This document shows, in pieces, positions 37,353 through 64,000 of a stretch of DNA of 64,000 bases (position 1 is the stretch's first letter; every line of letters begins with the position of its first letter). The stretch is from Desulfomonile tiedjei DSM 6799 (lineage in GTDB: Bacteria; Desulfobacterota; Desulfomonilia; Desulfomonilales; Desulfomonilaceae), in the NCBI RefSeq assembly GCF_000266945.1, contig NC_018025.1:2294001-2358000 (forward strand), read 5' to 3'. The translations under genes and the position numbers were made by a program. The notes below the pieces were generated by a model. It did no database searches. It saw only the letters and a program-made list of their open reading frames with translations, and was not told the DNA's origin.

Positions 37353-37622
37353 CTAGAGCAGCGATAAGCTGGAGTATTCGTTGTCTTCCGACTCGTTGCC
37401 CACAATCCTGTCCCAGAGCAGTTGAGATTTTGTCGCTGCGAACGCCAGATTCCTGATCAGTTCACCGATGTCATCCGTCTCAACGGCTCTGTCCAATGCG
37501 AGCTTTATTTCAAGCAACATTCGATGATGCTTATCCGGCAGTATCATTTGCGCCTCTTTTCCGTATAGATCTGATACCAATGCGCTTTCATACAAGTAAT
37601 ACCGATTCTCTTTTCTTCTCAT
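37353..37622 (-). CDS. Hypothetical 89-residue protein
   Basis: Begins MRRKENRYYLYESALVSDLYGKEAQMILPDKHHRMLLEIKLALDRAVETDDIG. It is predicted to be soluble, mostly helical and charged, without membrane segments. No ribosome site is clear, and I know no homologue. Its amino-acid make-up is protein-like and it does not overlap another gene, so it may be real. It is downstream of the giant VCBS gene on the same strand. Confidence 0.4.
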   Translation of the reverse strand: MRRKENRYYLYESALVSDLYGKEAQMILPDKHHRMLLEIKLALDRAVETDDIGELIRNLAFAATKSQLLWDRIVGNESEDNEYSSLSLL

Positions 37623-37631
37623 AATCTGGGA

Positions 37632-37698
37632 GGCTGGGGTATCCTTCGCTCCGGACGACGCAAAGCCGTCTAATCACTCCGCTCAGAACACCCCAGCC
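37632..37698 (-). other. Large stem-loop after the giant gene
   Basis: GGCTGGGGT (37632-37640) pairs perfectly with ACCCCAGCC (37690-37698); an inner GACG/CGTC pair can form. It lies between the giant gene stop (37816) and the small gene start (37622). It could terminate or protect the long mRNA, or be a dispersed repeat. Confidence 0.45.
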
Positions 37699-37815
37699 TT
37701 CGCTATGTTATGTGCTTGACTTGAACTAAATCTTTATCAGCATCAAAGCATGAAAGTCCGATTACTGTTCACGTCTCTGAACGCACGAGGCTCAGAAGAC
37801 TTTCGTGGAAAATGT

Positions 37816-40800
37816 TCAATCCTCCGTGCCCATGATAGTGATGGTCACTACATACTCCGTTATCACAGTTCCGTCAGTAGCGGTCACCGTGAACGTGTCA
37901 ATGAGAGGTTCACCTGCAGGGAGAGCTTGGACTACAGGATTGTCGTTGTCCAGGAGATAGGTCCATACACCGCCGGAAAAACTCACGGTTCCGTACCCGT
38001 TATGCGAGGTCACGTCAGTGAAGGGGATGAAAAGCGCAGTCCCGTCCACATCCGAGACCGTGAGGGTACCCGTGTCCGTAAGTGTGCCATCCTCGATGAC
38101 GGAGCCCGAATCATCTCCGTCGATCACAGCAGCATCGTTGATGCCCGTAATCGTGATGGTCACCGTGTGTGTCGTTCCATCAGCGGAGCTGACAGTGACT
38201 GAATCTGTGGCGATCTGCCCCTGATGCAGATTTTGGACCCGGTCATTATCCAGCATGTAGGTCCAGGCTCCATTCTCGTTAAGACTGAAGGTTCCATACG
38301 TCCGGACGACGTCCGTAATGGCTATGAATTCATCATCACCGTCGACATCTGCGATGGTGAGGGTGCCGATAGCCGGGCCGGTCGCATCCTCAGTGAGGGC
38401 CCCTCGATCCTCACCGGCAATAACTGCGGCATCGTTCGTGCCGTTAATCGTGATGGTCACGGTGTGTTCTGTTCCATCGGCAGAGTTTACGGTGAAGGTG
38501 TCAGTGGCGACGTCATCCTGGTCCAGGTGTTGGACCTTGTCATTATCCATCGTATAGGTCCAGGCTCCATCGGTGTTGAGACTGAAAGTTCCATATGTCC
38601 CGGTCACATTCGTAACGGCAACAAACTGTTCAGCACTATCCACATCCTCAACGGTGAGAGTGCCGATGTCGGTGAGTGAGCTATCCTCAGTGAGAGTGCC
38701 CTGATCGTCTCCGGTAATGAGGGCAGCATCGTTCATGCCGGTAATGGTAATGGTGACGCTGTGTGGTGTTCCATCAGCAGAGTTCACGGTGAATGAGTCA
38801 GTGACGGTTTCACCCTGGTACAGGTCTTGAACCTTGGCAATATCGAGGGAGTATGCCCAGGAACCATTTTCAGCGAGATTGAAGACTCCATATGTCCCGA
38901 CCATGTCTGTAATGACAGCAAACCCCGCATCTCCATCCACATCCGAGACGGTGAGGGTGCCGATAGCCGGACTGGTTGCATCCTCGGTGAGGGCGCCCTG
39001 GTCTTCTCCATCAATCACAGCAGCGTCGTTAACACCTGTAATGGTGATGGTGACGGTGTGTGGGGTTCCATCGGCAGAGCTTACGTCGAAGGATTCAGTT
39101 GCCGGCTGACCCTCGGACAGGCCTTGGACCAGGTCATTGTCCATCGTATAGGTCCAAGTTCCATCTGTGTTAAGACTGAAGGTTCCATATGTTCCGACTA
39201 CATTCGTAACGGCAACAAATTGTTCAGCACTATCCACATCCGAGACGGTGAGAGCGCCGGTGTCGGTGAGTGAGCCATCCTCAGTGAGGGTTCCCTGATC
39301 GTCTCCGGCAATCACCGCAAGATCGTTGGTGCCGTTAATGGTGATGGTCACCGTGTGTGTTGTTCCATCAGCGGAGCTTACGGTGAAGGAATCAGTGGCG
39401 GTGTCATCCTGGTCCAGATGTTGAACGGTGGCATTGTTCAGCGTATAGATCCAGTCTCCATCGGTCTCGATACTGAAGGTTCCATATGTTCCTTCCATGT
39501 TGGTAGTGGCAACAAACTGCTCAGGGCCGTCCACATCCGAGATGGTAAGAGTACCTGTGTCCTGGCCGATCGTATCTTCTGTGACGGAGCCCTGATTGTC
39601 TCCATCAATCACCGCAAGATCGTTGGTGCCGTTAATGGTGATGGTCACCGTGTGTGTTGTTCCATCAGCGGAGCTTACGGTGAAGGAATCAGTGGCGGTG
39701 TCATCCTGGTCCAGATGTTGAACGGTGGCATTGTTCAGCGTATAGATCCAGTCTCCATCGGTTTCGACAGTGAAGGTTCCATATGTTCCTTCCATGTTGG
39801 TAATGGCAACAAACTGCTCAGGGCCGTCCACATCCGCGACGGTGAGCGTACCCGTGTCTTGGCTGATCTCATCCTCAGTGACGGAGCCCTGATTGTCTCC
39901 ATCAATCATCGCTGCATCGTTCATGCCGTTAATGGTGATGGTCACCGTGTGTGTTGTTCCATCAGCGGAGCTTACGATGAATGAATCAGTGGCGGTGTCA
40001 TCCTGGTCCAGATGTTGAACGGTGGCATTGTTCAGCGTATAGATCCAGTCTCCATCGGTCTCGATAGTGAAGGTTCCATATGTTCCCTGCATTTCCGTAA
40101 TGGCAACAAACTGATCGGCACCGTCCACGTCCGATACCGTGAGTGTGCCTGTGACTTGGCTGGTCGCATCCTCAGTGACGGAGCTCGAATCGTCTCCGCC
40201 GATCTCCGCAGGATCGTTGGTGCCGGTAATGGTGACGGTCACGTCGTGCGGTGTTGCGACAGCCCCATCAGTTGAGATTACGGTGAATGTGTCAGTAAGT
40301 GTCCGCCCTTCAGCGAGACTCTGGATTGCAGGATTGCCGTTATCCAGAGTATAAGTCCAGACGCCATCCGGGGTGAGACTGACTGTTCCGTAACCGTTAT
40401 TCGAGATGACATTAGTGAACGGAACAAAGGCAGCACCGTCCACATCCGAGACTGTAAGAGTACCGGTATCGGCAAGAGAGCCATCTTCAATCACTGAGCC
40501 CGAATTGTCTCCCCCGAAGACGGCAGGATCGTCGGTACCGATAATCGTAATAGTCACCTGGTGCGGCGTGAGGAGGATTCCATCCGTACCGATCACGGTA
40601 AACGTGTCGGTAAGGGTTTCACCTGCGGCGAGACCCTGGACCGCTGGATTGGCATTGTTGAGAGTATAAGTCCACACACCGTTTAAGAAACTCACCGTTC
40701 CATAGCCGTTGTCTGAGGTAACATTCATGAAAGGAATGAATGCTGCAGATCCATCCACGTCAGAGACAGTGAGACGGCCGGTGTCTGTGAGTGTGCCATC

Positions 40801-43800
40801 TTCAGTCACTGAGCCCGAATCGTCTCCGGCAATCACAACAGGGTCATTGGTGCCGGTAATGGTGATGATCACGCTGTGTGGTGTTTCAACAGCCCCATCA
40901 GTAGAGATTACGGTGAATGAATCGGTAATTGTCTGACCCCCGGCGAGACTCTGAATTGCAGGATTGCTGCTATTCAGAGTGTACTCCCAGACCCCGTCCG
41001 CGGTGATGCGGAACGTTCCGAATCCGTTATTCGAGGTCACATTGGTCAGTGGAACAAAAGTGGCACCGTCCACATCGAAAACGGTGAGAGTGCCGGTATC
41101 TGTGAGTGTTCCATCTTCAGTGACGGTGCCCGAATCGTCTCCACCGAAGACAGCAGGATCATTGGTGCCGGCAATCATTATGGTGACGTCGTGTGCCGTC
41201 CCGTCAACGGAGCTGACAGTGAATGAGTCAGTAACGATCTGACCCTGATGCAGGTTTTGGACAGCGTCATTGTCCAGCGAATATGTCCATGCTCCATCTT
41301 CTGTGAGCGTGAAGGTTCCGTATGTCCCCTCGAAATCAGTAATGGCAGTAAACTGCTCGGCACCGTCCACATCCGAGACGTTAAGAGTGCCGGAGTCTAT
41401 GAGGGTGACATCCTCACTGAGGGCTCCCTGATCGTCTCCAGCAATCATGGCCGCATCGTTCACGCCTGTAATGGTAATGGTGAGGTTGTGTGGTGTCCCG
41501 TCAACAGAGTTTACGGTGAATGAGTCAGTGACGGTTTCACCTCCATACAGGTCTTGAACCTTTGTATTATCAAGTGAATAGGTCCATGCTCCCTCTTCCG
41601 TGAGCGTGAAGGTTCCGTATGTCCCTTCCAAATCAGTAATGGCAACAAACTGCCCGAGACTGTCCACATCTTCAACAGCAAGTATGCCTGACTCTGTGAG
41701 AGTGTCATCCTCAGTCACGTCGCCTGAATCTTCTCCGGAAATCGTTGCTGCATCATTCAAACCGGTAATGGTAATGGTGACGGTGTGCGGGGTTTCATCA
41801 GCGGATTTTACGGTAAACGAGTCAGTGGCGGTCTGGCCCTCATGCAGGTCTTGAACTTTCGTATTGTCGAGCGAATAGGTCCAGATTCCATTTTCCGAAA
41901 GGGTGAAAGTTCCAAAATCCCCTTGCATATTAGTGGCAACAAACTGCTCAGGACCGTCTACATCGTCAAGGATGAGAGAACCTGAGTCTGTGAGGGTACC
42001 ATCCTCAGAGACGGAACCCTGATCGTCACCGGAAATGAGCGCAGCATCATTTGCCCCGGTAATGGTAATAGTGAGGTTGTGTGGTGTTCCGTCAACAGAG
42101 TTTACGGTGAATGAGTCAGTGACGGTTTCGCCTTCATACAGGTCTTGAACCTTGGTATTATCAAGTGAATATGTCCATGCTCCCTCTTCTGTGAGCGTGA
42201 AGGTTCCGTATATCCCTTCCAAATCAGTAATGGCAATAAACTGCTCGGGACTGTCCACATCTTCAACAGCAAGTATGCCTGAGTCTGTGAGAGTGTCATC
42301 CTCAGTCACGTCGCCTGAATCTTCTCCGGAAATCGTTGCTGCATCATTCAAACCGGTAATGGTAATGGTGACGGTGTGCGGGGTTTCATCAGCGGATTTT
42401 ACGGTAAACGAGTCAGTGACGATTTCACCCTCATACAGGTCTTGAACTTTGCTATTATCAAGTGAGTATGCCCATGCTCCATCTTCGTCGATAGTGAAGG
42501 TTCCGTATGTCCCCTCGAAATCAGTAATGGCAATAAACTGCTCAGGACCGTCCACATCTTCAACGGCAAGTGTGCCGGAGTCTGTGAGGGTACCATCCTC
42601 GGAGACAGCGCCCTGATCGTCTCCCGTAATTTCCGCAGCATCATTCGCTCCGGTAATCGTAATGGTGACGTTATGTGATGTTCCATCGGCAGAGTTGACG
42701 GTGAAGGAATCAGTCGCTGTGTCATCCTGGTCCATGTGTTGGACGGTGGCATTATTCAGCGTGTAGGACCAGGATCCATCGGTGTTGAGACTGAAGGTTC
42801 CGTACGTCCCGGCAAAGTCCGTAATGGCAACAAACTGCTCCGGACTGTCGATATCTGCAACGGTGAGAGTGCCTGAGTCTGTGAGAGTGCCATCCTCAGT
42901 CACGGTGCCCTGATCGTCTCCATCAATAACAGCAGGATCGTTGGTGCCGGTAATGGTGATGGTCACGCTGTGCGGTGTTTCGGCAACCCCATCAGTTGAG
43001 ATTACGGTGAATGTATCAGTAAGTGTCTGCCCCTCAGCGAGGCTCTGGATTGCAGGATTGCTGTTATCCAGAGTATAGGTCCAGAGGCCACCCGTAGTGA
43101 TGCTGACCGTTCCGAAACCGTTATCGGATGTCACATTTGTGAACGGAACAAAAGCGGCACCATCCACATCAGAGTCGATGAGAGTGCCGGAGTCTGTGAG
43201 AGCGTTATCTTCAGTGACAGAGCCCGAATCGTCTCCACCGAAGACGGCAGGATCATTGGTGCCGGTGATCGTAATAGTCACCACGTGCGCCGTCACCTGG
43301 ATTCCATCCGTAACCGTCACGGTAAACGTGTCGGTAAGGGTTTCTCCTGCGGCGAGGCCCTGGACAGCAAGATTGGTGTTATCAAGTGCGTAGGTCCACA
43401 CGCCGTCGAAGAAGCTCACCGTTCCATAGCCATTATTGGAGATGACATTGGTGAAAGGAACGAAAAGAGCTGTGCCGTCCACATCGGAGACGGTGAAGGT
43501 GCCGGTATCTGTGAGAGCGCCATCCTCAGTGACAGAGCCCGAATCGTCCCCGGCAATCACAGCAGGGTCATTCGTCCCGGTAATGGTGACGGTCACGGTG
43601 TGTGGTGTTTCGATAACCCCATCCGTAGAGGTTACGATGAATGAGTCAGTAACAGTCTGACCTGCGGCGAGGCTCTGGATTGCAGAATTGCTGTTATCCA
43701 GAGTATACGTCCACAAGCCGTCCTCGGTGAGGGTGACCGTTCCGAATCCGTTATTGGAGATCACATTGGCTAGTGGGATGAAAGCAGCCCCGTCCGCATC

Positions 43801-46800
43801 GGAAACGGTGAGGGTGCCGGAGTCTGTGAGAGCGTTATCCTCAGTGACAGAGCCCGAGTCGTCTCCACCGAAGACAGCCGGATCATTGGTGCCGGTAATG
43901 GTGATGGTGACACTGTGTGGTGTTCCATCAACGGAGCTGACGGTGAATGAGTCAGTAACGGTCTCATCCTGGAACAGGTGTTGAACTTTGTCATTGTCCA
44001 GGGAATAGGTCCAGTTACCATCGACGGTGAGACTGAAGGTTCCAAATGTTCCTTCTATGTTCGTAAGGCTGTCAAACTCCGGATCTCCATCCACATCGAA
44101 TACGGTGAGAGTGCCGGTGTCTGTGAGTACGCCATCCTCAGTAACGGAACCCTGATTGTCCCCAGTAATCACCGCGGCGTCGTTCACGCCTGTAATGGTG
44201 ATGGTGACGCTGTGTAGTGTTCCGTCGGCAGAATTGACCGTGAACGAGTCGATAGCGGTGTCATCCACATCCAAGTGCTGGACCTTAGAATTATCGAGCG
44301 AATATGTCCATGCTCCATTTTCATCGAGCGAGAAGGTTCCGTATGTTCCTTCAAATTCCGTAATGGCAACAAACTGCTCGTCACTGTCCACGTCTTCAAC
44401 GGTGAGGGTGCCGGAGTCAGTGAGCGTGCCATCCTCGGTGACGAAGCCCTGATCGTCTCCGGTAATCACCGCGTCATCGTTCACGCCGGTAATGGTGATG
44501 ATGACGCTGTGTGATGTTCCATCGGCAGAGCTGATGGTGAAGGAATCGACAGCGGTCACGCCCTGGGCTAGGTCTTGAACCCGAGTATTATCCAGGAAAT
44601 AGGTCCAGTTTCCACTAGTGTCGAGCGAGAAGGTTCCGTATGTTCCTTCAAATTCCGTAATGGCAACAAACTGCTCGTTACTGTCCACGTCTTCAACGGT
44701 GAGGGTGCCGGAGTCAGTGAGCGTGCCATCCTCGGTGACGGAACCCAGATTGTCTCCGGTGATCACCGCGTCATCGTTCACCCCGGTAATGGTAATGGTG
44801 ACGGTGTGTGTTGCTCCATCAGCAGAGCTGACGGTGAAGGAATCAGTAGCAATATCATTCTGGTACAGGTGTTGGACCCTGGTATTATCGAGCGCATAGG
44901 TCCAGTCTCCATTCGTGTTGAGCGAGAAGGTTCCATATGTTCCTTCAAATTCCGTAATAGCAACGAACTGCTCCGGACTGTCCACATCTTCAACGGTGAG
45001 GGTGCCGGTGTCTGTGAGAGCACCATCTTCAGTGACGGAGCCCTGATCGTCTCCGGTAATCACCGCGTCATCGTTCACGCCGGTAATGGTGATGGTGACG
45101 GTATGTGTCGTCCCATCAGCGGAGTTGACACTGAAGGTGTCAGTAACGGTTTCATCCTGGGCCAAGTCTTGAACCAGCGTATTATCCAGGGAATATGTCC
45201 AGACCCCATTTTCTTCGAGCGAGAAGGTTCCATATGTCCCTTCAAATTCCGCAATGGCAACAAACTGCTCTTGATTATCCACATCTTCAACGGTGAGGGT
45301 GCCGGTATCTGTGAGACCGCCATCTTCAGTGACAGAGCCCTGATCGTCTCCAGTAATTATGGCAGCATCATTCACCCCGGTAATGGTGATGGTCACGGTA
45401 TGACCTGCTCCATCAGCAGAGTTGACGATGAAGGAGTCAGTGGCGGTCTGGCCCTCATGCAGGTCTTGAACTTTCGTATTGTCGAGCGAATAGGTCCAGA
45501 TTCCATTTTCCGAAAGGGTGAAAGTTCCAAAATCCCCTTGCATATTAGTGGCAACAAACTGCTCCGGACTGTCCACATCATCAATAGTGAGAGTGCCTGA
45601 GTCTGTGAGAGTGTCATCCTCCGTTACTGCTCCCTGATCGTCCCCACCGATGACTGCAAGATCGTTGGAACCGGTTATTGTGACGGTCACTTCGTGTGGT
45701 GTTTCAACAGCCCCATCAGTCGAAATTACGGTAAATGAATCAGTAATTGTTTGACCTTCTGCGAGACTGTGAATTGCAGGATTGCTGTTATCCAGAGTGT
45801 AAGTCCAGACGCCATCCGTGGTGATACTGAACGTTCCGAAACCGTTATTCGAGATCGCATTAGTAGACTCAACAAAAGCAGCCCCGTCCACATCCGAGAC
45901 TGTAAGAGTGCCGGTATCGTCAAGAGTGCCATCTTCAACCACTGAGCCTGAATCGTCTCCCCCGATAACAGCAGGATCATCGGTTCCGGTAATCGTAATA
46001 GTCACCACGTGCGTCGTCACCTGAATTCCGTCGGTGCTGGTCACTGTAAAGCTATCGGTAAGAGTTTCGCCTGCAGCGAGACCCTGAACTGCAGGATTGG
46101 AATTGTTAAGAACATACGTCCACACACCGTTGAAAAAGCTCACCGTTCCGAAGCCGTTGTGGGATGTCGCGTTTGTGAAAGGAACAAATGCTGCAGATCC
46201 ATCCACGTCGGAGACTGTGAGCGTGCCGGTGTCTGTAAGCGTGCCATCTTCAGTCACCGAGCCCGAATCGTCGCCGGTAATGACAGCAGAATCGTTGGTG
46301 CCGATAATGGTGATGGTCACGTCGTGCGGCGTTTCAACAGCCCCATCAGTAGAGATTACGGTGAATGAATCAGTAATTGTCTCACCTTCAGCGAGACTTT
46401 GGATTGCAGGATTGCTGTTGTCCAGAGTATACGTCCAGACGCCTTCCGGGCTTATACTGAACGTTCCGAATCCGTTATTGGAAGTTACATTGGTCAATGG
46501 AACAAAAGCAGCCCCGTCCACATCTTCAACGGTGAGGGTGCCGGTGTCTGTGAGAGCGCCATCTTCAGTAACGGAGCCCTGATCGTCTCCGGTAATCACT
46601 GCTGCATCGTCCATGCCGGTGATAGTAATGGTAACGCTGTGTGGTGTTCCATCAGCGGAGTTTACGGTGAATGATTCAGTGACGGTTTCACCCTGGTACA
46701 GGTGTTGGACCTTGGTATTATCGAGCGAATAGATCCATGCTCCATTTTCGGCGAGAGTGAAGGTTCCGTATGTTCCTTCCAGATCAGTAATGGCAATGAA

Positions 46801-46920
46801 CTGCTCCGGACTGTCCACATCTTCAACGGTAAGGGTGCCGGAGTCTGTGAGCGTGTCATCTTCAATGACAGCGCCCTGATTGTCTCCAGCAATCACCGCG
46901 GCATCGTTAATGCTGTTGAC
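37816..46920 (-). repeat. 30 tandem VCBS repeats (about 290-315 bp each)
   Basis: Repeats 1-30 counted in the translation. Two classes alternate: a short class with TYGTFSL...W.Y.LDN.KVQ.L and a long class with NNGFGTVS...LDNSNPAIQSLA...STDGAVETPH. Copies 23-25 are nearly identical to each other. Confidence 0.9.
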
Positions 46921-49900
46921 CGTGATGGTCACCGTGGCAGTATCGCTGTCCAGATCTCCATCATTGGCTTTATACGTGAAAGAGTCAGTTCCGTTGAAGT
47001 TCTCATTCGGAATATAGGTGAAGGACCCGTCAGTATTGAGGGTCAGTGTCCCATTGAGAGGCTGCTCCTGAACAATCGCCATCAACGACTCTGAATCGAT
47101 ATCGGAGTCATTGCCTAGTACCCCTGAAGCAGGAATGCTAAGAGGAGTGTCTTCATCTGTAAAAAATGAGTCATCTGTTGCAGTCGGAGGATCGTTCACC
47201 GGCGTGACGTCGATCGTCATAGTGTACGAGTCCAGACTGTATTCCGTGCCATCGGATACCTTGAAAACAAAGTTTGCATATCCGGTTCCATTTTCAGTAG
47301 GATCCGGAGTAAAGGTGAGGAGGCCGGCAGCGATATCGACAACGGAAATTTCACTATTGACTTGAACCGGATCGCTTCCGAGGAGAAGGATACCACTGGC
47401 AGGTAATTCAACTATCTGGACATACTGTAACGAATCCTGGGGACCGGAATCCGAGAACCCGAAATCATCGATCGTAAAAGAATAAATACTGTCTTCCATC
47501 AGACTGATGGTATTATCAGAAGCCATTGGAGGAACGTTTTCGACTGTGACTGTGAAAGTATTGGTGATTCCGAGGCCACCATCTTCATCTCTAGCTCCTG
47601 CAACGATCGTGTGCACCCCGCTATCGGAAAATGTGAGGCTGAATTGTGTTGGATCTGGTATCCAAATCGGATCGGAGCCATCTATCCTATAACCATAGAG
47701 CAATGAGTCACCGGGAACATCGCCAAACATGGCAGTGAGGTCTAGCGGTACTGTAGATGAACCTTCAGTGATAATCATATCCTCAATATGACCTGTGAAC
47801 ACGGGATTAACATTATTAACGGTGATAATGAAGATATTTGAGGCAACAAAACCTCCGTCGTCATCATGCACTGAGATGGTGACGGCATGTGAGCCGTTAT
47901 CACCGAAAGTAAGGCTGAATTCGGTAGGATTGTCTATGTGCTGAAGGTCGCCGCCATCGAGAGAATAGAAGTAGTTCAAGGTATCGGCCGGAACATCAGT
48001 GAAATAATCGGTCAGATTGATGAAGGGTGTAGAATTTCCCTCATCAATAGTAATGTTATTGATATCTTGTAAGGACACGGGATTGAGGTTATTGACGGCG
48101 ACAATGAAGATATTTGAGGCAACAAAACCTCCGTCGTCATCATGCACTGAGATGGTGACAGCATGCGGGCCGTTATCACCGAAAGCAAGGCTGAATTCGG
48201 TAGGATTGTCTATGTGCTGAAGGTCGCCGCCATCGAGAGAGTAGAAATAGTTCAAGGTATCGGCTTGGACATCGGAGAAGTAGGCGGTGAGATCGATGGG
48301 TAGTGTGGATGTGCCCTCATCGATGGTCATGTTATCGATGATTCCTGAGAAGACAGGATTGAGATTTACGACATCGACAGTGAAGGTATTGGAATCAACA
48401 GTTCCTCCATCCCCGTCCGAGACAGTGATGACCACATTGTGCGACCCGTTATCGTCGAAAGTGAGGGAGAATTGATCAGGGGTGGTAATCTGCTGTGAGG
48501 TGCCTCCATCGATAGAATAGGAGTATATCAGCGTATCTGCCGGGACATCTGAGAAGAGGGCCGTGAGATCGATAGGTAGTGTGGATGTGCCCTCATCGAT
48601 GGTCATGTTATCGATGATTCCTGAGAAGACAGGATTGAGATTTACGACATCGACAGTGAAGGTATTGGAATCAACAGTTCCTCCATCCCCGTCCGAGACA
48701 GTGATGACCACATTGTGCGACCCGTTATCGTCGAAAGTGAGGGAGAATTGATCAGGGGTGGTAATCTGCTGTGAGGTGCCTCCATCGATAGAATAGGAGT
48801 GTATCAGCGTATCTGCCGGGACATCTGAGAAGAGGGCCGTGAGATCGATAGGCAGCGTGGATGTGCCCTCGTTGACGGTCATGTTATCGATGATGCCTAA
48901 GAAGACAGGATTGAGATTGAGGACTTCAACGGTGAAAGTGTTGGAATCAACGGTTCCTCCATCCCCATCGGAGACTGTAACGATCACACTATGTGAGCCG
49001 TTATCGTCGAAAGAGAGAGAAAATTGAGCAGGGTTGGCGATATTCTGTGAGGTGCCACCATCGATTGCATAAGAGTACGTCAGGGTGTCAGCGGGGACAT
49101 CAGAGAAGTAGGCGGTGAGATCGATAGGCAGCGTGGATGTGCCCTCGTTGACGGTCATGTTATCGATGATTCCTGAGAAGACAGGATTGAGATTTACGAC
49201 ATCGACAGTGAAGGTATTGGAATCAACGGTTCCTCCATCACCATCCGAGACAGTGACTACCACATTGTGTGACCCGTTGTCATCGAAGGTAAGAGAGAAC
49301 TGGGCGGGATTGGTGATCTGCTGTGAGGTGCCTCCATCGATAGAATAAGAGTACGTCAGGGTGTCGGCCGGGACATCAGAGAAGTAGGCGGTGAGATCGA
49401 TAGGCAGTGTGGATGTGCCCTCATTGATAGTCATATTGTCGATGGTACCCGAGAAGACGGGATTGAGATTTGTGACATTGACAGTGAAGGACTGTAAAGC
49501 TTCGCTTCCAGCTTGCCCATCGGTAGCGCGGATGGTGATGTTGTGAGCGCCATTGTTGCCATACGTTAATGTGAAGTTTGTTGGATCCAGTATGTCAACG
49601 TACGCTCCGCCGTCTTCGGAGTAAGAATATGTCAAGACGTCATCGACTATATCCTGAAAGTATGTTGTCAAATCTATGGAGAGAGTTGAATTTCCCTCGT
49701 CCATTGTGACATTGTCCATGATACCAACGGGCACCGGGGCCACGTTTTCAACGGTTATCTGAATAGAGTTCGAAGTTGATTGCGATCCACCGCTCCCTGA
49801 ATTTCCCAGGTCATTCACAACTATGGTTAAGCTGTCGATATAGTCGTTGGTAGGATTGTATACCAGGGTCTGGAGGGCCTCATTGATTTCACTCCATGTT

Positions 49901-50802
49901 GCCCTGAAAGTCATCATAGAATCGAGTGTTCCGCCACCAGCCTGAAAATCCAGGCTGCCATCGTTCGTTATACTCAACAGTCCATAGTTTACCGAGAGAG
50001 TCACCTCTATGTCACTGTTGCCGGAATCAACGTCGTATACATACAAGGAACTGATAGAGAGTTCTGAATTTTCCTGTATCGTCTGTTCAGCAGGCACCAT
50101 TACAGTGGGAGCGTCGTTTACCAATGATGAAGAGTGTTGTTGGATATAATGGAAATCATTTCCCCAAATATATTCGCTTTGGTTCCAGTCATTGAAAACC
50201 TGAACTCCGAAATTGTCAGCAAACCAAGTCCGATAGAGTTCCCATGCATCATCATTGACAGCATCAAACCACCACCATTGTCCACCATAATGGTCTTGAT
50301 ACAGCAGATGGAGATCGTCCACACGGTACTGACTTCCGTTCCAATCGTTGTAGACCCACATCCACTCGGAATCAACCTGGTCCGCGAACCAGGTGAATGC
50401 CGGCTCCCAGTTCTCGTCAGTCACGTCATCCCACCAGTACCACGCGCCGGTTGAGGCTTCGGAATACCAGTATTGGTGCTCGCCGTGATACCAGTAAGTA
50501 ATATCTCCTGAGATTTGAGCCCACCAATCACTGGTCTCGTTCCACCACCAATTCGTGTTTTGGTTATACCACCAGCCTTCTCCATCGTCGTTGTACCACC
50601 AGCCGTCATTGACATAAACCCAGCCAAGGCTGTCTACCTGATTTGTGTCCGCTTGATCGGAATATACGTGATCGGTATCTTGGGATGCCTCTAAGTGTTT
50701 ATCGACAGTTCCATCCAGTACAATTCTTTCCTCAAGCACCTCGAGAACCAGTCCACCGCGACTATGATCGAATGCTTCTGAAACTTCTTTTTGCCGTTTC
50801 AT
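37816..50802 (-). CDS. Giant VCBS-repeat surface protein with Trp-rich N-terminus
   Basis: 4328 residues; AAAGGA precedes the ATG. An N-terminal LEERIVLDGT (residues 23-32) resembles the LEPR-XLL motif of very large extracellular repeat proteins. Residues 61-213 contain 27 Trp. After a cadherin-like segment come eight 92-residue PKD/cadherin-like repeats (IDNMTxxEGTSTLPIDLT...), about two more cadherin-like domains, and by my count 30 VCBS repeats of two lengths (about 97 and 103 residues; pattern GDDxGSVTEDGxLTDTGTLTVxDVD). It ends at TITIMGTED, the end of a repeat, with no RTX or other secretion domain. The likely role is adhesion or biofilm. Type I secretion would normally need a C-terminal signal, which is not visible, and no transporter lies nearby. 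Confidence 0.92.
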   Translation of the reverse strand: MKRQKEVSEAFDHSRGGLVLEVLEERIVLDGTVDKHLEASQDTDHVYSDQADTNQVDSLGWVYVNDGWWYNDDGEGWWYNQNTNWWWNETSDWWAQISGDITYWYHGEHQYWYSEASTGAWYWWDDVTDENWEPAFTWFADQVDSEWMWVYNDWNGSQYRVDDLHLLYQDHYGGQWWWFDAVNDDAWELYRTWFADNFGVQVFNDWNQSEYIWGNDFHYIQQHSSSLVNDAPTVMVPAEQTIQENSELSISSLYVYDVDSGNSDIEVTLSVNYGLLSITNDGSLDFQAGGGTLDSMMTFRATWSEINEALQTLVYNPTNDYIDSLTIVVNDLGNSGSGGSQSTSNSIQITVENVAPVPVGIMDNVTMDEGNSTLSIDLTTYFQDIVDDVLTYSYSEDGGAYVDILDPTNFTLTYGNNGAHNITIRATDGQAGSEALQSFTVNVTNLNPVFSGTIDNMTINEGTSTLPIDLTAYFSDVPADTLTYSYSIDGGTSQQITNPAQFSLTFDDNGSHNVVVTVSDGDGGTVDSNTFTVDVVNLNPVFSGIIDNMTVNEGTSTLPIDLTAYFSDVPADTLTYSYAIDGGTSQNIANPAQFSLSFDDNGSHSVIVTVSDGDGGTVDSNTFTVEVLNLNPVFLGIIDNMTVNEGTSTLPIDLTALFSDVPADTLIHSYSIDGGTSQQITTPDQFSLTFDDNGSHNVVITVSDGDGGTVDSNTFTVDVVNLNPVFSGIIDNMTIDEGTSTLPIDLTALFSDVPADTLIYSYSIDGGTSQQITTPDQFSLTFDDNGSHNVVITVSDGDGGTVDSNTFTVDVVNLNPVFSGIIDNMTIDEGTSTLPIDLTAYFSDVQADTLNYFYSLDGGDLQHIDNPTEFSLAFGDNGPHAVTISVHDDDGGFVASNIFIVAVNNLNPVSLQDINNITIDEGNSTPFINLTDYFTDVPADTLNYFYSLDGGDLQHIDNPTEFSLTFGDNGSHAVTISVHDDDGGFVASNIFIITVNNVNPVFTGHIEDMIITEGSSTVPLDLTAMFGDVPGDSLLYGYRIDGSDPIWIPDPTQFSLTFSDSGVHTIVAGARDEDGGLGITNTFTVTVENVPPMASDNTISLMEDSIYSFTIDDFGFSDSGPQDSLQYVQIVELPASGILLLGSDPVQVNSEISVVDIAAGLLTFTPDPTENGTGYANFVFKVSDGTEYSLDSYTMTIDVTPVNDPPTATDDSFFTDEDTPLSIPASGVLGNDSDIDSESLMAIVQEQPLNGTLTLNTDGSFTYIPNENFNGTDSFTYKANDGDLDSDTATVTITVNSINDAAVIAGDNQGAVIEDDTLTDSGTLTVEDVDSPEQFIAITDLEGTYGTFTLAENGAWIYSLDNTKVQHLYQGETVTESFTVNSADGTPHSVTITITGMDDAAVITGDDQGSVTEDGALTDTGTLTVEDVDGAAFVPLTNVTSNNGFGTFSISPEGVWTYTLDNSNPAIQSLAEGETITDSFTVISTDGAVETPHDVTITIIGTNDSAVITGDDSGSVTEDGTLTDTGTLTVSDVDGSAAFVPFTNATSHNGFGTVSFFNGVWTYVLNNSNPAVQGLAAGETLTDSFTVTSTDGIQVTTHVVTITITGTDDPAVIGGDDSGSVVEDGTLDDTGTLTVSDVDGAAFVESTNAISNNGFGTFSITTDGVWTYTLDNSNPAIHSLAEGQTITDSFTVISTDGAVETPHEVTVTITGSNDLAVIGGDDQGAVTEDDTLTDSGTLTIDDVDSPEQFVATNMQGDFGTFTLSENGIWTYSLDNTKVQDLHEGQTATDSFIVNSADGAGHTVTITITGVNDAAIITGDDQGSVTEDGGLTDTGTLTVEDVDNQEQFVAIAEFEGTYGTFSLEENGVWTYSLDNTLVQDLAQDETVTDTFSVNSADGTTHTVTITITGVNDDAVITGDDQGSVTEDGALTDTGTLTVEDVDSPEQFVAITEFEGTYGTFSLNTNGDWTYALDNTRVQHLYQNDIATDSFTVSSADGATHTVTITITGVNDDAVITGDNLGSVTEDGTLTDSGTLTVEDVDSNEQFVAITEFEGTYGTFSLDTSGNWTYFLDNTRVQDLAQGVTAVDSFTISSADGTSHSVIITITGVNDDAVITGDDQGFVTEDGTLTDSGTLTVEDVDSDEQFVAITEFEGTYGTFSLDENGAWTYSLDNSKVQHLDVDDTAIDSFTVNSADGTLHSVTITITGVNDAAVITGDNQGSVTEDGVLTDTGTLTVFDVDGDPEFDSLTNIEGTFGTFSLTVDGNWTYSLDNDKVQHLFQDETVTDSFTVSSVDGTPHSVTITITGTNDPAVFGGDDSGSVTEDNALTDSGTLTVSDADGAAFIPLANVISNNGFGTVTLTEDGLWTYTLDNSNSAIQSLAAGQTVTDSFIVTSTDGVIETPHTVTVTITGTNDPAVIAGDDSGSVTEDGALTDTGTFTVSDVDGTALFVPFTNVISNNGYGTVSFFDGVWTYALDNTNLAVQGLAAGETLTDTFTVTVTDGIQVTAHVVTITITGTNDPAVFGGDDSGSVTEDNALTDSGTLIDSDVDGAAFVPFTNVTSDNGFGTVSITTGGLWTYTLDNSNPAIQSLAEGQTLTDTFTVISTDGVAETPHSVTITITGTNDPAVIDGDDQGTVTEDGTLTDSGTLTVADIDSPEQFVAITDFAGTYGTFSLNTDGSWSYTLNNATVQHMDQDDTATDSFTVNSADGTSHNVTITITGANDAAEITGDDQGAVSEDGTLTDSGTLAVEDVDGPEQFIAITDFEGTYGTFTIDEDGAWAYSLDNSKVQDLYEGEIVTDSFTVKSADETPHTVTITITGLNDAATISGEDSGDVTEDDTLTDSGILAVEDVDSPEQFIAITDLEGIYGTFTLTEEGAWTYSLDNTKVQDLYEGETVTDSFTVNSVDGTPHNLTITITGANDAALISGDDQGSVSEDGTLTDSGSLILDDVDGPEQFVATNMQGDFGTFTLSENGIWTYSLDNTKVQDLHEGQTATDSFTVKSADETPHTVTITITGLNDAATISGEDSGDVTEDDTLTESGILAVEDVDSLGQFVAITDLEGTYGTFTLTEEGAWTYSLDNTKVQDLYGGETVTDSFTVNSVDGTPHNLTITITGVNDAAMIAGDDQGALSEDVTLIDSGTLNVSDVDGAEQFTAITDFEGTYGTFTLTEDGAWTYSLDNDAVQNLHQGQIVTDSFTVSSVDGTAHDVTIMIAGTNDPAVFGGDDSGTVTEDGTLTDTGTLTVFDVDGATFVPLTNVTSNNGFGTFRITADGVWEYTLNSSNPAIQSLAGGQTITDSFTVISTDGAVETPHSVIITITGTNDPVVIAGDDSGSVTEDGTLTDTGRLTVSDVDGSAAFIPFMNVTSDNGYGTVSFLNGVWTYTLNNANPAVQGLAAGETLTDTFTVIGTDGILLTPHQVTITIIGTDDPAVFGGDNSGSVIEDGSLADTGTLTVSDVDGAAFVPFTNVISNNGYGTVSLTPDGVWTYTLDNGNPAIQSLAEGRTLTDTFTVISTDGAVATPHDVTVTITGTNDPAEIGGDDSSSVTEDATSQVTGTLTVSDVDGADQFVAITEMQGTYGTFTIETDGDWIYTLNNATVQHLDQDDTATDSFIVSSADGTTHTVTITINGMNDAAMIDGDNQGSVTEDEISQDTGTLTVADVDGPEQFVAITNMEGTYGTFTVETDGDWIYTLNNATVQHLDQDDTATDSFTVSSADGTTHTVTITINGTNDLAVIDGDNQGSVTEDTIGQDTGTLTISDVDGPEQFVATTNMEGTYGTFSIETDGDWIYTLNNATVQHLDQDDTATDSFTVSSADGTTHTVTITINGTNDLAVIAGDDQGTLTEDGSLTDTGALTVSDVDSAEQFVAVTNVVGTYGTFSLNTDGTWTYTMDNDLVQGLSEGQPATESFDVSSADGTPHTVTITITGVNDAAVIDGEDQGALTEDATSPAIGTLTVSDVDGDAGFAVITDMVGTYGVFNLAENGSWAYSLDIAKVQDLYQGETVTDSFTVNSADGTPHSVTITITGMNDAALITGDDQGTLTEDSSLTDIGTLTVEDVDSAEQFVAVTNVTGTYGTFSLNTDGAWTYTMDNDKVQHLDQDDVATDTFTVNSADGTEHTVTITINGTNDAAVIAGEDRGALTEDATGPAIGTLTIADVDGDDEFIAITDVVRTYGTFSLNENGAWTYMLDNDRVQNLHQGQIATDSVTVSSADGTTHTVTITITGINDAAVIDGDDSGSVIEDGTLTDTGTLTVSDVDGTALFIPFTDVTSHNGYGTVSFSGGVWTYLLDNDNPVVQALPAGEPLIDTFTVTATDGTVITEYVVTITIMGTED
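47515..49730 (-). repeat. Eight tandem 276-bp repeats (92-aa PKD/cadherin-like units)
   Basis: Eight units with the pattern IDNMTxxEGTSTLPIDLTAYFSDVPADTL. The fourth and fifth are almost identical at DNA level (about 48281-48560 and 48557-48836), so the array has recently duplicated or converted. Confidence 0.88.
50164..50622 (-). other. Sequence encoding the Trp-rich domain of the giant protein
   Basis: Residues 61-213: 27 Trp in 153 positions, with many Tyr, Asp and Asn, including WWW twice. Two related units share TWFAD, NDWN and D-x-H-x3-Q (about residues 132-170 and 187-222). I do not recognise the domain. Confidence 0.8.
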
Positions 50803-52821: not shown

Positions 52822-53521
52822 TGAATATTTTTTGGACCGGAAATGCCTGGTTTACCAAGAAACGATTTATGATTGCCCAATTAGTCCCCGGCTTTTATTC
52901 AATGTATGAGAGCATCGACGGTAAGTAGTGTGGCTAAAGGACTGAGTGCCTATAAAGTAGCCCTCGGCCGGGTGTGCCTGGTAAGAGAAAGACGCGGGAG
53001 AGTTACGGGAAACAAGAAAGAGGAACTAAAGCACATAGGTAGGCAACAAGACGGAAGCAATCTGAGGGAAGTTGTAATAATGACGCTGTAATCGAAACAA
53101 AATAGTTTCTTCGCTGACCGGATTACCGCGCATCTTGCATGCACTGCGAAGCACTGATGACAATATGCATGTAGAAAAACGATCTTACTTAGACCGCCAA
53201 TGCTGATTAATACCACTATGCGTTCAAAGAAGTAATCCCGCCACCGGGTGGAGCAAATCCGGTCCTGGCATGCCTCCGAAGCGAAGTCAGGCGGTGCTGT
53301 TCGTAGCGAAGGAGATTTGCCGGGACCGGTAAATAACAGGTTTCTCAATATTCCCTACTATGAAAGCACATTGGTACAAATGTGTTCACGCAGATTTGAA
53401 AGACAAGAAACACTGCCACAACTTGCAGTATGAGGACAACAAAATGATGCTCCCTTTCATGGTCGTGCCAACCCGGTGATGCTCAACCCACATCCGGAGC
53501 GACTATACTCTGCACAGAGGT
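52822..53521. other. Gene-free stretch between IS66 and OYE gene
   Basis: About 700 bases. It contains copy 1 of the 156-bp structured repeat (53219-53374). A 61-codon frame at 52906 has low-complexity basic composition and no recognisable features, so it is not called. Confidence 0.55.
53219..53374 (+). repeat. 156-bp structured repeat, copy 1
   Basis: Near-identical to 54897-55053. A CCACC-G-GGTGG hairpin lies near the left end. A long-range stem pairs CCGGTCCTGG with CCGGGACCGG around 51 bases. The right half (AAATAACAGGTTTCTCA and TATGAAAGCACATTGG) is conserved but unstructured. Confidence 0.85.
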
Positions 53522-54628
53522 TCAAGCGTCCCTGTATCTGGGAAAATCAGTGTAACCAACAGCGTCGAACGAATACCAAACCTTCGTTTCTGCCTGCGGA
53601 TTTAACGGCCAACCATTCGCGAACCGTTCTACCAGATCAGGATTGCTGAGATATGGTCGGCCGAAAGCGATCAAATCGGCCTGTCCGTTCTGAATCGCAG
53701 CCTCCGCTGTTTCCTGAGTGTATCCACAATTTCCCATGATCGGCCCCTTAAACACTTCCCGGAATTCGGCCAGCGTCATGGGCTCTCCCAATGCATGAAA
53801 CCCAAATGCCAGGCCATCCATTACATGGAGATATGCAAGATTGTACCGATTCAACTCTCTAGCAACATAGAGAAACGTGTCACGATAATCCGGTGAGCCC
53901 ATATCGTTGAAAATACCGTTCGGTGCCAGATGCACGCCTACTCGGTTAGAGGGCCAGACAGTGAGAACTGCGTTCACGATTTCATCCAGAAACCGATAGC
54001 GGTTTTCCAGACTACCGCCATAGCGGTCCGTCCGGTGATTCGTCTTGGATTGCAGGAACTGATCGATCAGGTATCCATTCGCAGCGTGAAATTCAACCCC
54101 GTCAAACCCTGCAGCTTTCGCGCGTTCGGAGGCCCGTCGATAGTCCTCCACGATGGCTGGTATCTCACTGGTTTCCAGCGCTCGAGGCGCTTCGTATGGC
54201 AGCTTGCCTTTAGGCGTGTGACTATAGTCGCCGTTAATTTTGATGGCAGAAGGTGCTACCGGAAGATCTCCGTTTTCGAAAAAAGCAGCGTGGGAAGCCC
54301 TCCCGCAATGCCAAAGCTGGAGAAAAATCGGTGTTCCTGTGCGGTGGACCGCGTCGACAACTTGCTTCCACGCTTCGGCCTGCTCATCAGAATAGATTCC
54401 CGGACTGTTCAGCCAGCCAATGCCCTGTTTCGAGACGACAGTAGCCTCACTGACGATCAATCCGGCCGAGCTCCTTTGAGTATAATACTCGGCCATCAGT
54501 GCATTTGGCATCCGCTGCTCGCCCGCCCGTGACCGGGTCAATGGCGACATGACGATCCTATTTCTTAATGAGAGCCCGCCTAAATCGTATGAAGTGAATA
54601 AAGAGCCATTATTGATTCTTGTGACCAT
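53522..54628 (-). CDS. Old Yellow Enzyme family alkene reductase (NemA-like)
   Basis: 368 residues; TGGAGG precedes the ATG. FMN-dependent TIM barrel: N-terminal LSLRNRIVMSPLTRSRA, substrate-anion pair in EFHAANGYLIDQFLQ (H-x2-N), and phosphate-binding GNCGYT and DLIAFGRPYLSNPDLVERF. It reduces activated C=C bonds of enones or nitro-compounds with NAD(P)H in the cytoplasm. It is isolated and flanked on both sides by copies of the 156-bp repeat, which may have helped move it. Confidence 0.93.
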   Translation of the reverse strand: MVTRINNGSLFTSYDLGGLSLRNRIVMSPLTRSRAGEQRMPNALMAEYYTQRSSAGLIVSEATVVSKQGIGWLNSPGIYSDEQAEAWKQVVDAVHRTGTPIFLQLWHCGRASHAAFFENGDLPVAPSAIKINGDYSHTPKGKLPYEAPRALETSEIPAIVEDYRRASERAKAAGFDGVEFHAANGYLIDQFLQSKTNHRTDRYGGSLENRYRFLDEIVNAVLTVWPSNRVGVHLAPNGIFNDMGSPDYRDTFLYVARELNRYNLAYLHVMDGLAFGFHALGEPMTLAEFREVFKGPIMGNCGYTQETAEAAIQNGQADLIAFGRPYLSNPDLVERFANGWPLNPQAETKVWYSFDAVGYTDFPRYRDA

Positions 54629-54896
54629 GTTTTTACCTCCAGCAATCGGACGTGTGCGATGACTTGCCGTTTCGTGCGTGCTTCATGCTCGTGAGAAGGG
54701 AAGGGCGGTCTGCTGGACGGCCAGAATCGTACATTCCAGCCCAGACATCATGCATGGGCAAAAACATCGCTGCGTTGCTGAAAAAGCCTGTCCTTTCTTA
54801 TGCGTGAACATAATTCAGGGTATGCCCGCGGTCAAGGGCGATACTGGAGAACAGGAGTGGATCGTGAGCAGGCAGTTCGTCGTGACGATATCAGTG

Positions 54897-55053
54897 TGCG
54901 TTCAAAGAAGTAATCCCGCCACTAGCGGGAGCAAATCCGGACCCGGCATGCCTCCGAAGCGAAGTCAGGCGATGCCGTTCGTAGCGAAGGAGATTTGCCG
55001 GGTCCGGCAAATAACAGGTTTCTCACAATATTCCCTCTATGAAAGCACATTGG
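54897..55053 (+). repeat. 156-bp structured repeat, copy 2
   Basis: Direct-orientation copy of 53219-53374, 1.7 kb away. The left hairpin is CCCGC-CACTA-GCGGG. The long stem reads CCGGACCCGG with CCGGGTCCGG: both strands differ from copy 1 at the same base pair, so pairing is kept. Confidence 0.85.
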
Positions 55054-55285
55054 CATGATTCGATGCGATCGATCTGCCATCGCTTGCCTGCCGGCAATGA
55101 AGAGGGTGTCACAAAAATTTCTGAAACCTTATCTTCCAACGGATGTCTAGTAAATCAGGTCCATGTGAAAGACGCACCGTGCGTCTGAACCGCTTGCTGC
55201 TTAAAGGACAGTTGACTATTGTAAGACTCTTTTTAGGCGGTCCTTTGAGAGCAAGCCACATGGACTTTCTGCGTTCTACTTCAAT

Positions 55286-62139: not shown

Positions 62140-64000
<1,861 letters not shown>

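Follow-up and report, generated by a model that had tools for sequence, protein, structure and literature searches.

Repeats flanking an OYE-family gene of Desulfomonile tiedjei as probable independent insertions of a MITE family with a conserved hairpin core

Introduction

Transposons of the IS5 and PIF-Harbinger types generate 3-bp target site duplications (TSDs) of the form TNA or TWA, and IS5 ends start with GG or GA. MITEs whose interiors can fold are familiar elements (PMC2229807, PMC3733652, PMC6382973), and most such elements are A+T rich by the account in PMC2229807. REP elements are defined, in the corresponding part of PMC3733652, as palindromes of 20 to 40 bp with a terminal GTAG tag.

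Here we describe two repeats in a 64,000-nucleotide stretch of the Desulfomonile tiedjei DSM 6799 genome, referred to below as the window, which spans positions 2294001-2358000 of a 6,500,104-bp contig (genome total, 6,527,027 bp). They belong to what we call family A, a newly found family of MITEs, elements of an already known kind; the conservation of its core is unusually high. We found no description of this Desulfomonilaceae MITE family in the open-access literature searched.

Results

The two repeats lie in direct orientation on either side of a gene of the OYE family, as the initial annotation had reported, and share 91% identity over 138 ungapped nucleotides (92% over a 156-nucleotide query). 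A 21-mer from their core, searched with up to three mismatches, had two matches in the window and none in 100 shuffled sequences. The repeats had been described as 156 bp long; they are real at that length, but their true ends lie a few bases farther out, at 53211-53376 (166 bp) and 54889-55055 (167 bp). The features of the locus, in window coordinates, are as follows.

53211-53376, plus strand: MITE copy 1, 166 bp; ends set by an alignment of 40 copies with unrelated flanks
53208-53210, no strand: left flank TAA of copy 1 (right flank CAA, 53377-53379), read as a decayed 3-bp TSD by the TSD rule of the family
53211-53226, plus strand: left terminal inverted repeat of copy 1
53361-53376, minus strand: right terminal inverted repeat of copy 1
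53246-53342, plus strand: hairpin core of copy 1, an outer covarying stem and an inner GNA/GNA hairpin; covariance model R1, 90.3 bits
54889-55055, plus strand: MITE copy 2, 167 bp; ends set by the alignment
54886-54888, no strand: left flank CGA of copy 2 (right flank TGA, 55056-55058), read as a decayed 3-bp TSD
54924-55020, plus strand: hairpin core of copy 2; model R1, 94.0 bits
53522-54628, minus strand: OYE-family gene between the copies; PF00724, E 7.4e-79
37575-37715, right edge approximate, no strand: third, related element: a TACCAATGCGCTTTCA-type end and, behind it, a family B hairpin; R1 match at 37615-37715, minus strand, 21.6 bits, E 0.0026

This third element has the appearance of a nested or chimeric one. 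It adjoins a giant gene, an open reading frame of 4,328 amino acids (37816-50802) built of repeated GDDQGSVTEDGTLTDSGTLTV-type units, presumably VCBS-like, which perhaps encodes a large surface adhesin. Directly to the left of copy 1 lies an IS66-type transposase gene (PF03050; 51311-52687), for which we saw no link to the repeats.

The genome has at least 40 copies, and when 40 of them were aligned with 60 nucleotides of flanking sequence, their borders were sharp, with TACCAATGTGCGTTCAAAGAAGTAA on the left and CTATGAAAGCACATTGGTA on the right, and the flanks were unrelated except in four copies lying inside another repeat; a few aligned copies (L017, L026, L058, and L061) lack the normal right end. 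The ends form 16-bp terminal inverted repeats (TIRs) of the TACCAATGTGCKTTCA type. An element of family A reads, in order, TIR, spacer, long hairpin, spacer, and TIR. Allowing one mismatch, the TIR pattern had 159 matches in the genome, compared with none for a reversed control. Within the 1.31 Mb around these matches we found 74 TIR pairs less than 600 bp apart. Identical 3-bp flanks bordered 43 of the 74, compared with 15.3% expected from mismatched pairs, and 41 of these 43 flanks were TNA; no flank identity was found at widths of 2, 4, 5, 6, 8, or 9 bp among the same 74 pairs. The remaining 31 pairs, both in-window copies among them, do not have identical 3-bp flanks.

Empty sites bear out this duplication. 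Removal of the element and one copy of the TSD restored family B sequence with an ungapped junction at four of six sites, all four lying inside repeat family B; three of them had an exact TSD and the fourth an imperfect one (TTA/ATA). At 1515020, a site with a guessed left end, keeping the TSD gave the better score (70 versus 67), and the trial at 5275092 gave no family B alignment. By eye, the copy at 5275092 carries a repeat resembling another palindromic family, which we call C.

A covariance model of the core (R1) found at least 85 places in the genome at an E value of ≤0.001, a few of them partial, among the best 150 of 1,249 candidates scored. These places are scattered throughout the genome, 50 on the minus strand and 35 on the plus strand; the GC skew was too slight for replichores to be delimited. 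R1 had matches in 11 of 18 Desulfomonilaceae genomes and in none of 42 genomes from outside the family. The exact TIR occurred in 2 of 395 genomes of the phylum, with 44 matches in D. tiedjei and 1 in G004, and a scan of a species-genome collection for the exact core, in a collection that may omit the genome studied here, returned eight stretches, all from metagenome assemblies titled Desulfomonile tiedjei. Six genomes contributed 60 further copies, with G008 providing 42, and TACCAAT-type ends were recognizable in 54; equal 3-bp flanks bordered 34 of these 54, and 33 of the 34 were TNA.

Within family A, hairpin modules are exchanged: the size classes have common ends and different interiors. 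The class of ~104 bp is without the core hairpin, the 154-bp class is without the CCCGCC/GGCGGG hairpin, the 165-bp class is the form seen in the window, the 174-bp class has an extended apical hairpin, and most of the 88- to 92-bp class and the 216-bp class carry other hairpins. The core-bearing classes, at about 136 to 174 bp, are short and non-coding, far below the length of a transposase gene; one core-bearing copy of 340 bp contains an insertion. Family A has four hallmarks of a MITE: a short non-coding body, TIRs, a target duplication with precise empty sites, and multicopy dispersal.

Repeat family B was seen at 40 places in the 1.31 Mb sampled (for example, at 63557, 450886, and 1739079). 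Its members are at most about 150 bp long, with ends TACCATTTCGCA and TACCGATTCGCTTTTC and flanks that by eye are often TNA-like. Judged by eye on 40 core matches, the family B core has the same order as that of family A (GC, GNA/GNA, G-C, A.G) with different arms, and R1 scored one family B core at an E value of 0.0026. The 40 matches, one of which is cut by a MITE A copy, were chosen by similarity to a single core string (at most nine substitutions), so the apparent conservation of the family B core is biased upward. At 1595660, by eye, a junction within the core links the left half of family A with the right half of family B.

Taken together, these results make it very probable that a non-autonomous DNA transposon, MITE family A, inserted twice and independently to give the two repeats; among the genomes searched it is restricted to the Desulfomonilaceae, and a DDE transposase presumably moved it in trans. 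A search for that transposase, which required TIR pairs spaced 0.7 to 3.2 kb, equal TNA flanks, and a long open reading frame, found no autonomous element in ~1.4 Mb, about a fifth of the genome. It gave nine candidate rows, seven of which hold other genes, judged on their first 80 residues; the other two, both at L267, have the gene of a 466-amino-acid insertion sequence between repeat ends, but that insertion sequence has ends of its own. Inspection by eye over 230 nt behind 25 of 26 unpaired TIRs, among 100 of the 159 TIR sites, showed no autonomous element. PF01609 had 34 matches in the genome, and we rejected both abundant PF01609 insertion sequences as the parent, their ends being different from those of family A. 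PF13359 had no match over the cutoff in five genomes and one below it in G001; PF13340 had none in this genome and one over the cutoff in G004. The twin unpaired TIRs at 5100870 and 6430925 were likewise rejected as insertion sequence ends: the two distant sites share at least 6,051 bp at 100% identity, a genomic duplication that includes an NtrC-type regulator gene.

Of the two PF01609 insertion sequences, the one of 490 amino acids has 18 matches in the genome and forms a 1,681-bp block with ends GAAAGCGTCTCA and GAAACTGTCTCA; one MITE A copy (L061, 2224880-2227025, TIR pair 2.1 kb apart) is split by ~2 kb holding it. The one of 466 amino acids has ends CAATGCTGTTGA and an 11-bp duplication (for example, at L265, L266, L267, L268, L269, and L271), and its 14 full-length matches are all on the plus strand. 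It seems to be target specific, because six of eight insertions examined lie at the same spot of family C.

The hairpin core has an outer stem in which the initial annotation had noticed a swapped base pair, taking it as support for selection on a fold. The swap is present, as T53263/A53325 in copy 1 and A54941/T55003 in copy 2. Across 40 copies from this genome, that pair is T-A in 35, A-T in 1, and unpaired in 4. Uncorrelated stem changes in other copies, the outcome named beforehand as speaking against selection, did appear once 40 copies had been collected: double-changed cells numbered 5, compared with 3.3 in shuffled alignments, and 80 of 500 shuffles reached as high. By a simpler count that left out the mostly unpaired pairs 26 to 28, the 639 outer-stem cells of these 40 copies include 2 double changes and 28 broken pairs, so the difference between the two in-window copies is one of just two in the genome. 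The same count in G008, leaving out pairs 14 to 17, gave 0 double changes and 26 broken pairs in 628 cells.

Between genera, by contrast, covariation was strong. Alignment A1 comprises 30 copies: 7 of the 40 from this genome, hand-picked for diversity, and 23 of 25 loci from relatives (the matcher found no core in L041, and L055 was omitted). It had 120 double-changed cells, compared with 50.2 in shuffles, none of 500 reaching as high, and a pairing frequency of 85.6%, compared with 38 to 50% for slid partners. Alignment A4 holds 60 other copies and gave 127 double-changed cells, compared with 44.9 (again 0 of 500 shuffles as high); these are not independent events, because 42 of the 60 rows come from one species, and for covariation counts in general relatedness alone can exceed shuffles. 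A4 consists of the 60 sense matches, realigned with MAFFT, of an alignment (A3) of 68 matches, 8 of them antisense, that was not used for counts; its copies were selected by the model built on A1, yet were aligned without that model. In at least half of the A4 rows the outermost pairs 14 to 17 are unpaired, which shortens the conserved stem in that alignment. From one species to another, entire outer arms are different, yet pairing is preserved. The strong covariation between genera therefore implies that the conserved fold is real at the level of the family, and five cores that we folded (three from this genome and two from relatives) were more stable than shuffled sequences, with z scores from -2.7 to -5.6. 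In some copies the stem is broken and the 5' arm resembles the 3' arm, reading CCGGGACCGG exactly in L019 and nearly so in L024 and L057, with a further case at 5275092; these arms look like the products of local inversion or template switching.

Inside the stem are two 3 × 3 internal loops and a third A.G, with edges that are nearly frozen. The five edge pairs keep their identity in most rows of both alignments: G33.A65 in 29/30 rows of A1 and 54/60 of A4, A35.G63 in 27/30 and 57/60, G38.A60 in 28/30 and 56/60, A40.G58 in 28/30 and 57/60, and A44.G54 in 30/30 and 54/60. The mean entropy of the loop edges is 0.16 bits in A1 and 0.26 bits in A4, compared with 0.97 and 0.88 bits for the loop middles; the short inner stems are likewise conserved in both alignments. 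On sequence grounds, the inner loops resemble tandem sheared G.A loops (GNA/GNA). The pattern is strand specific, because the opposite strand has C.T mismatches.

Discussion

When just two copies of a repeat are compared, a compensatory change offers weak evidence for a fold: with 40 copies the signal was gone within the genome, and it became visible only between lineages. Pairing is lost in resident copies but kept across lineages, so the fold most likely matters at propagation and not at resident sites. The folded strand would then be selected only while the element propagates, at transposase recognition, at strand transfer, or at replication of a master copy. We consider it most likely that the fold serves propagation of the element, or is repaired by template switching, and does not serve a host RNA function. 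A requirement for the fold in transposition is what we infer from this pattern, and template switching could yield the same covariation.

Template switching is the main rival. Correction of quasipalindromes during replication would keep the arms complementary in place of selection, leaving the hairpin as a by-product of the inverted repeat, and we regard this as a real possibility, if not the favored one. The mechanism is a described source of multibase compensatory changes (so presented in part of PMC8794818), and both the replacement of the 5' arm in L019, L024, and L057 and the turnover of entire outer arms between species with pairing kept are what it would produce. It leaves unexplained the near-invariant unpaired G.A/A.G edges beside variable loop middles, and it may act together with selection. 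The 85 cores in one genome and the presence of the family in 11 of 18 Desulfomonilaceae genomes provide a natural set for asking whether selection for mobility, template switching, or a combination of the two maintains the internal hairpins of bacterial MITEs; a stem that drifts while staying paired, beside frozen GA edges, is the pattern that makes that question directly testable.

A further reading is possible but on balance doubtful: the GNA/GNA hairpin may be a single-strand recognition module, perhaps of single-stranded DNA, common to several MITE families of the Desulfomonilaceae that differ in arms and ends, and read by the mobilizing machinery in addition to the TIRs. In that reading, lineages would swap arms and TIRs and keep the module for this reason. 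If true, a folded-DNA signal would sit within an otherwise conventional TIR/TSD transposon.

That resident copies act as regulatory RNAs or terminators for adjacent genes is improbable. Their folds do beat shuffled sequences, and among the 55 of 85 copies that had 700 nucleotides of flank, 49 lie between crude open reading frame calls, with 5 inside one and 1 unclassified. The contexts nevertheless look unselected, at 30 tandem, 11 divergent, and 8 convergent, as raw counts set against no computed background; in tandem contexts the core has the same orientation in 19 and the opposite in 11. The lack of a clear gene arrangement, read with that same reservation, speaks against these hairpins serving generally as terminators or riboregulators. 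Compensation among resident copies is nearly nil both here (2 double changes versus 28 broken pairs) and in G008 (0 versus 26), and Rfam had no match at gathering thresholds in the window and none at an E value of ≤5 in 53100-55150.

The initial annotation had also suggested that direct repeats around one gene could act as the ends of a cassette. Two same-orientation copies around one gene, with outer flanks that are both TNA (TAA and TGA), do have the look of a composite transposon carrying the OYE gene, but we hold this to be very improbable. Each copy has its own near-TSD, its two flanks agreeing at two of three positions, N included (TAA/CAA and CGA/TGA), and core places are found across the genome, 85 of them. 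The two closest OYE orthologues, in G004 (85% identity) and G009 (75%), have no R1 core in their 1.5-kb flanks, and their blastn match is confined to the gene. The repeats do not resemble the ends of a cassette, these two orthologues being without them in the 1.5-kb flanks; movement of the OYE gene with its flanking copies was rejected on the orthologues, the TSDs, and the genome-wide copies, and the gene is most likely a bystander and not cargo.

The suggestion that the repeats are REP elements mobilized by a RAYT (Tnp REP) likewise has almost nothing left to it: they are palindromic, extragenic, and high in copy number, with a GTAG within the 3' arm, but at ~166 bp, with TIRs and a 3-bp TSD, they are not 20- to 40-bp palindromes, and their GTAG is internal and not a terminal tag. 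A RAYT motif scan of 1.78 Mb of loci from this genome and related ones, crude, partial, and run without a positive control, gave no match. The likeness of family A to the REP/REPIN and RAYT systems lies in the imperfect extragenic palindrome; the difference lies in size, TIRs, TSD, and the placement of GTAG.

With IS5 and PIF-Harbinger transposons, family A shares the length and pattern of the TSD; it differs in its ends, which are TACCAAT and not GG or GA. The CIR repeats of Caulobacter and Brucella are similar in having a proposed RNA fold with phylogenetically conserved properties, and part of PMC2229807 describes them as two long arms joined by a linker, which sets them apart, and as having a GANTC motif. 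Whereas most MITEs are A+T rich in the account of that source (PMC2229807), the GC contents of the in-window cores are 0.58 and 0.60. Family A also resembles bacterial MITEs in general, among them RUP, NEMIS, ERIC, and Nezha (named in parts of PMC2229807 and PMC3733652) and MITEAba12; such elements, as described in part of PMC2229807, are short, non-coding, and multicopy, with TIRs that have a terminal 5'-TA, a target duplication, and a foldable interior. Family A differs from these in that the core of its hairpin is conserved between genera, its outer stem covaries, and its GA loop edges are nearly invariant; the order of that core recurs in family B, whose arms and ends are different.
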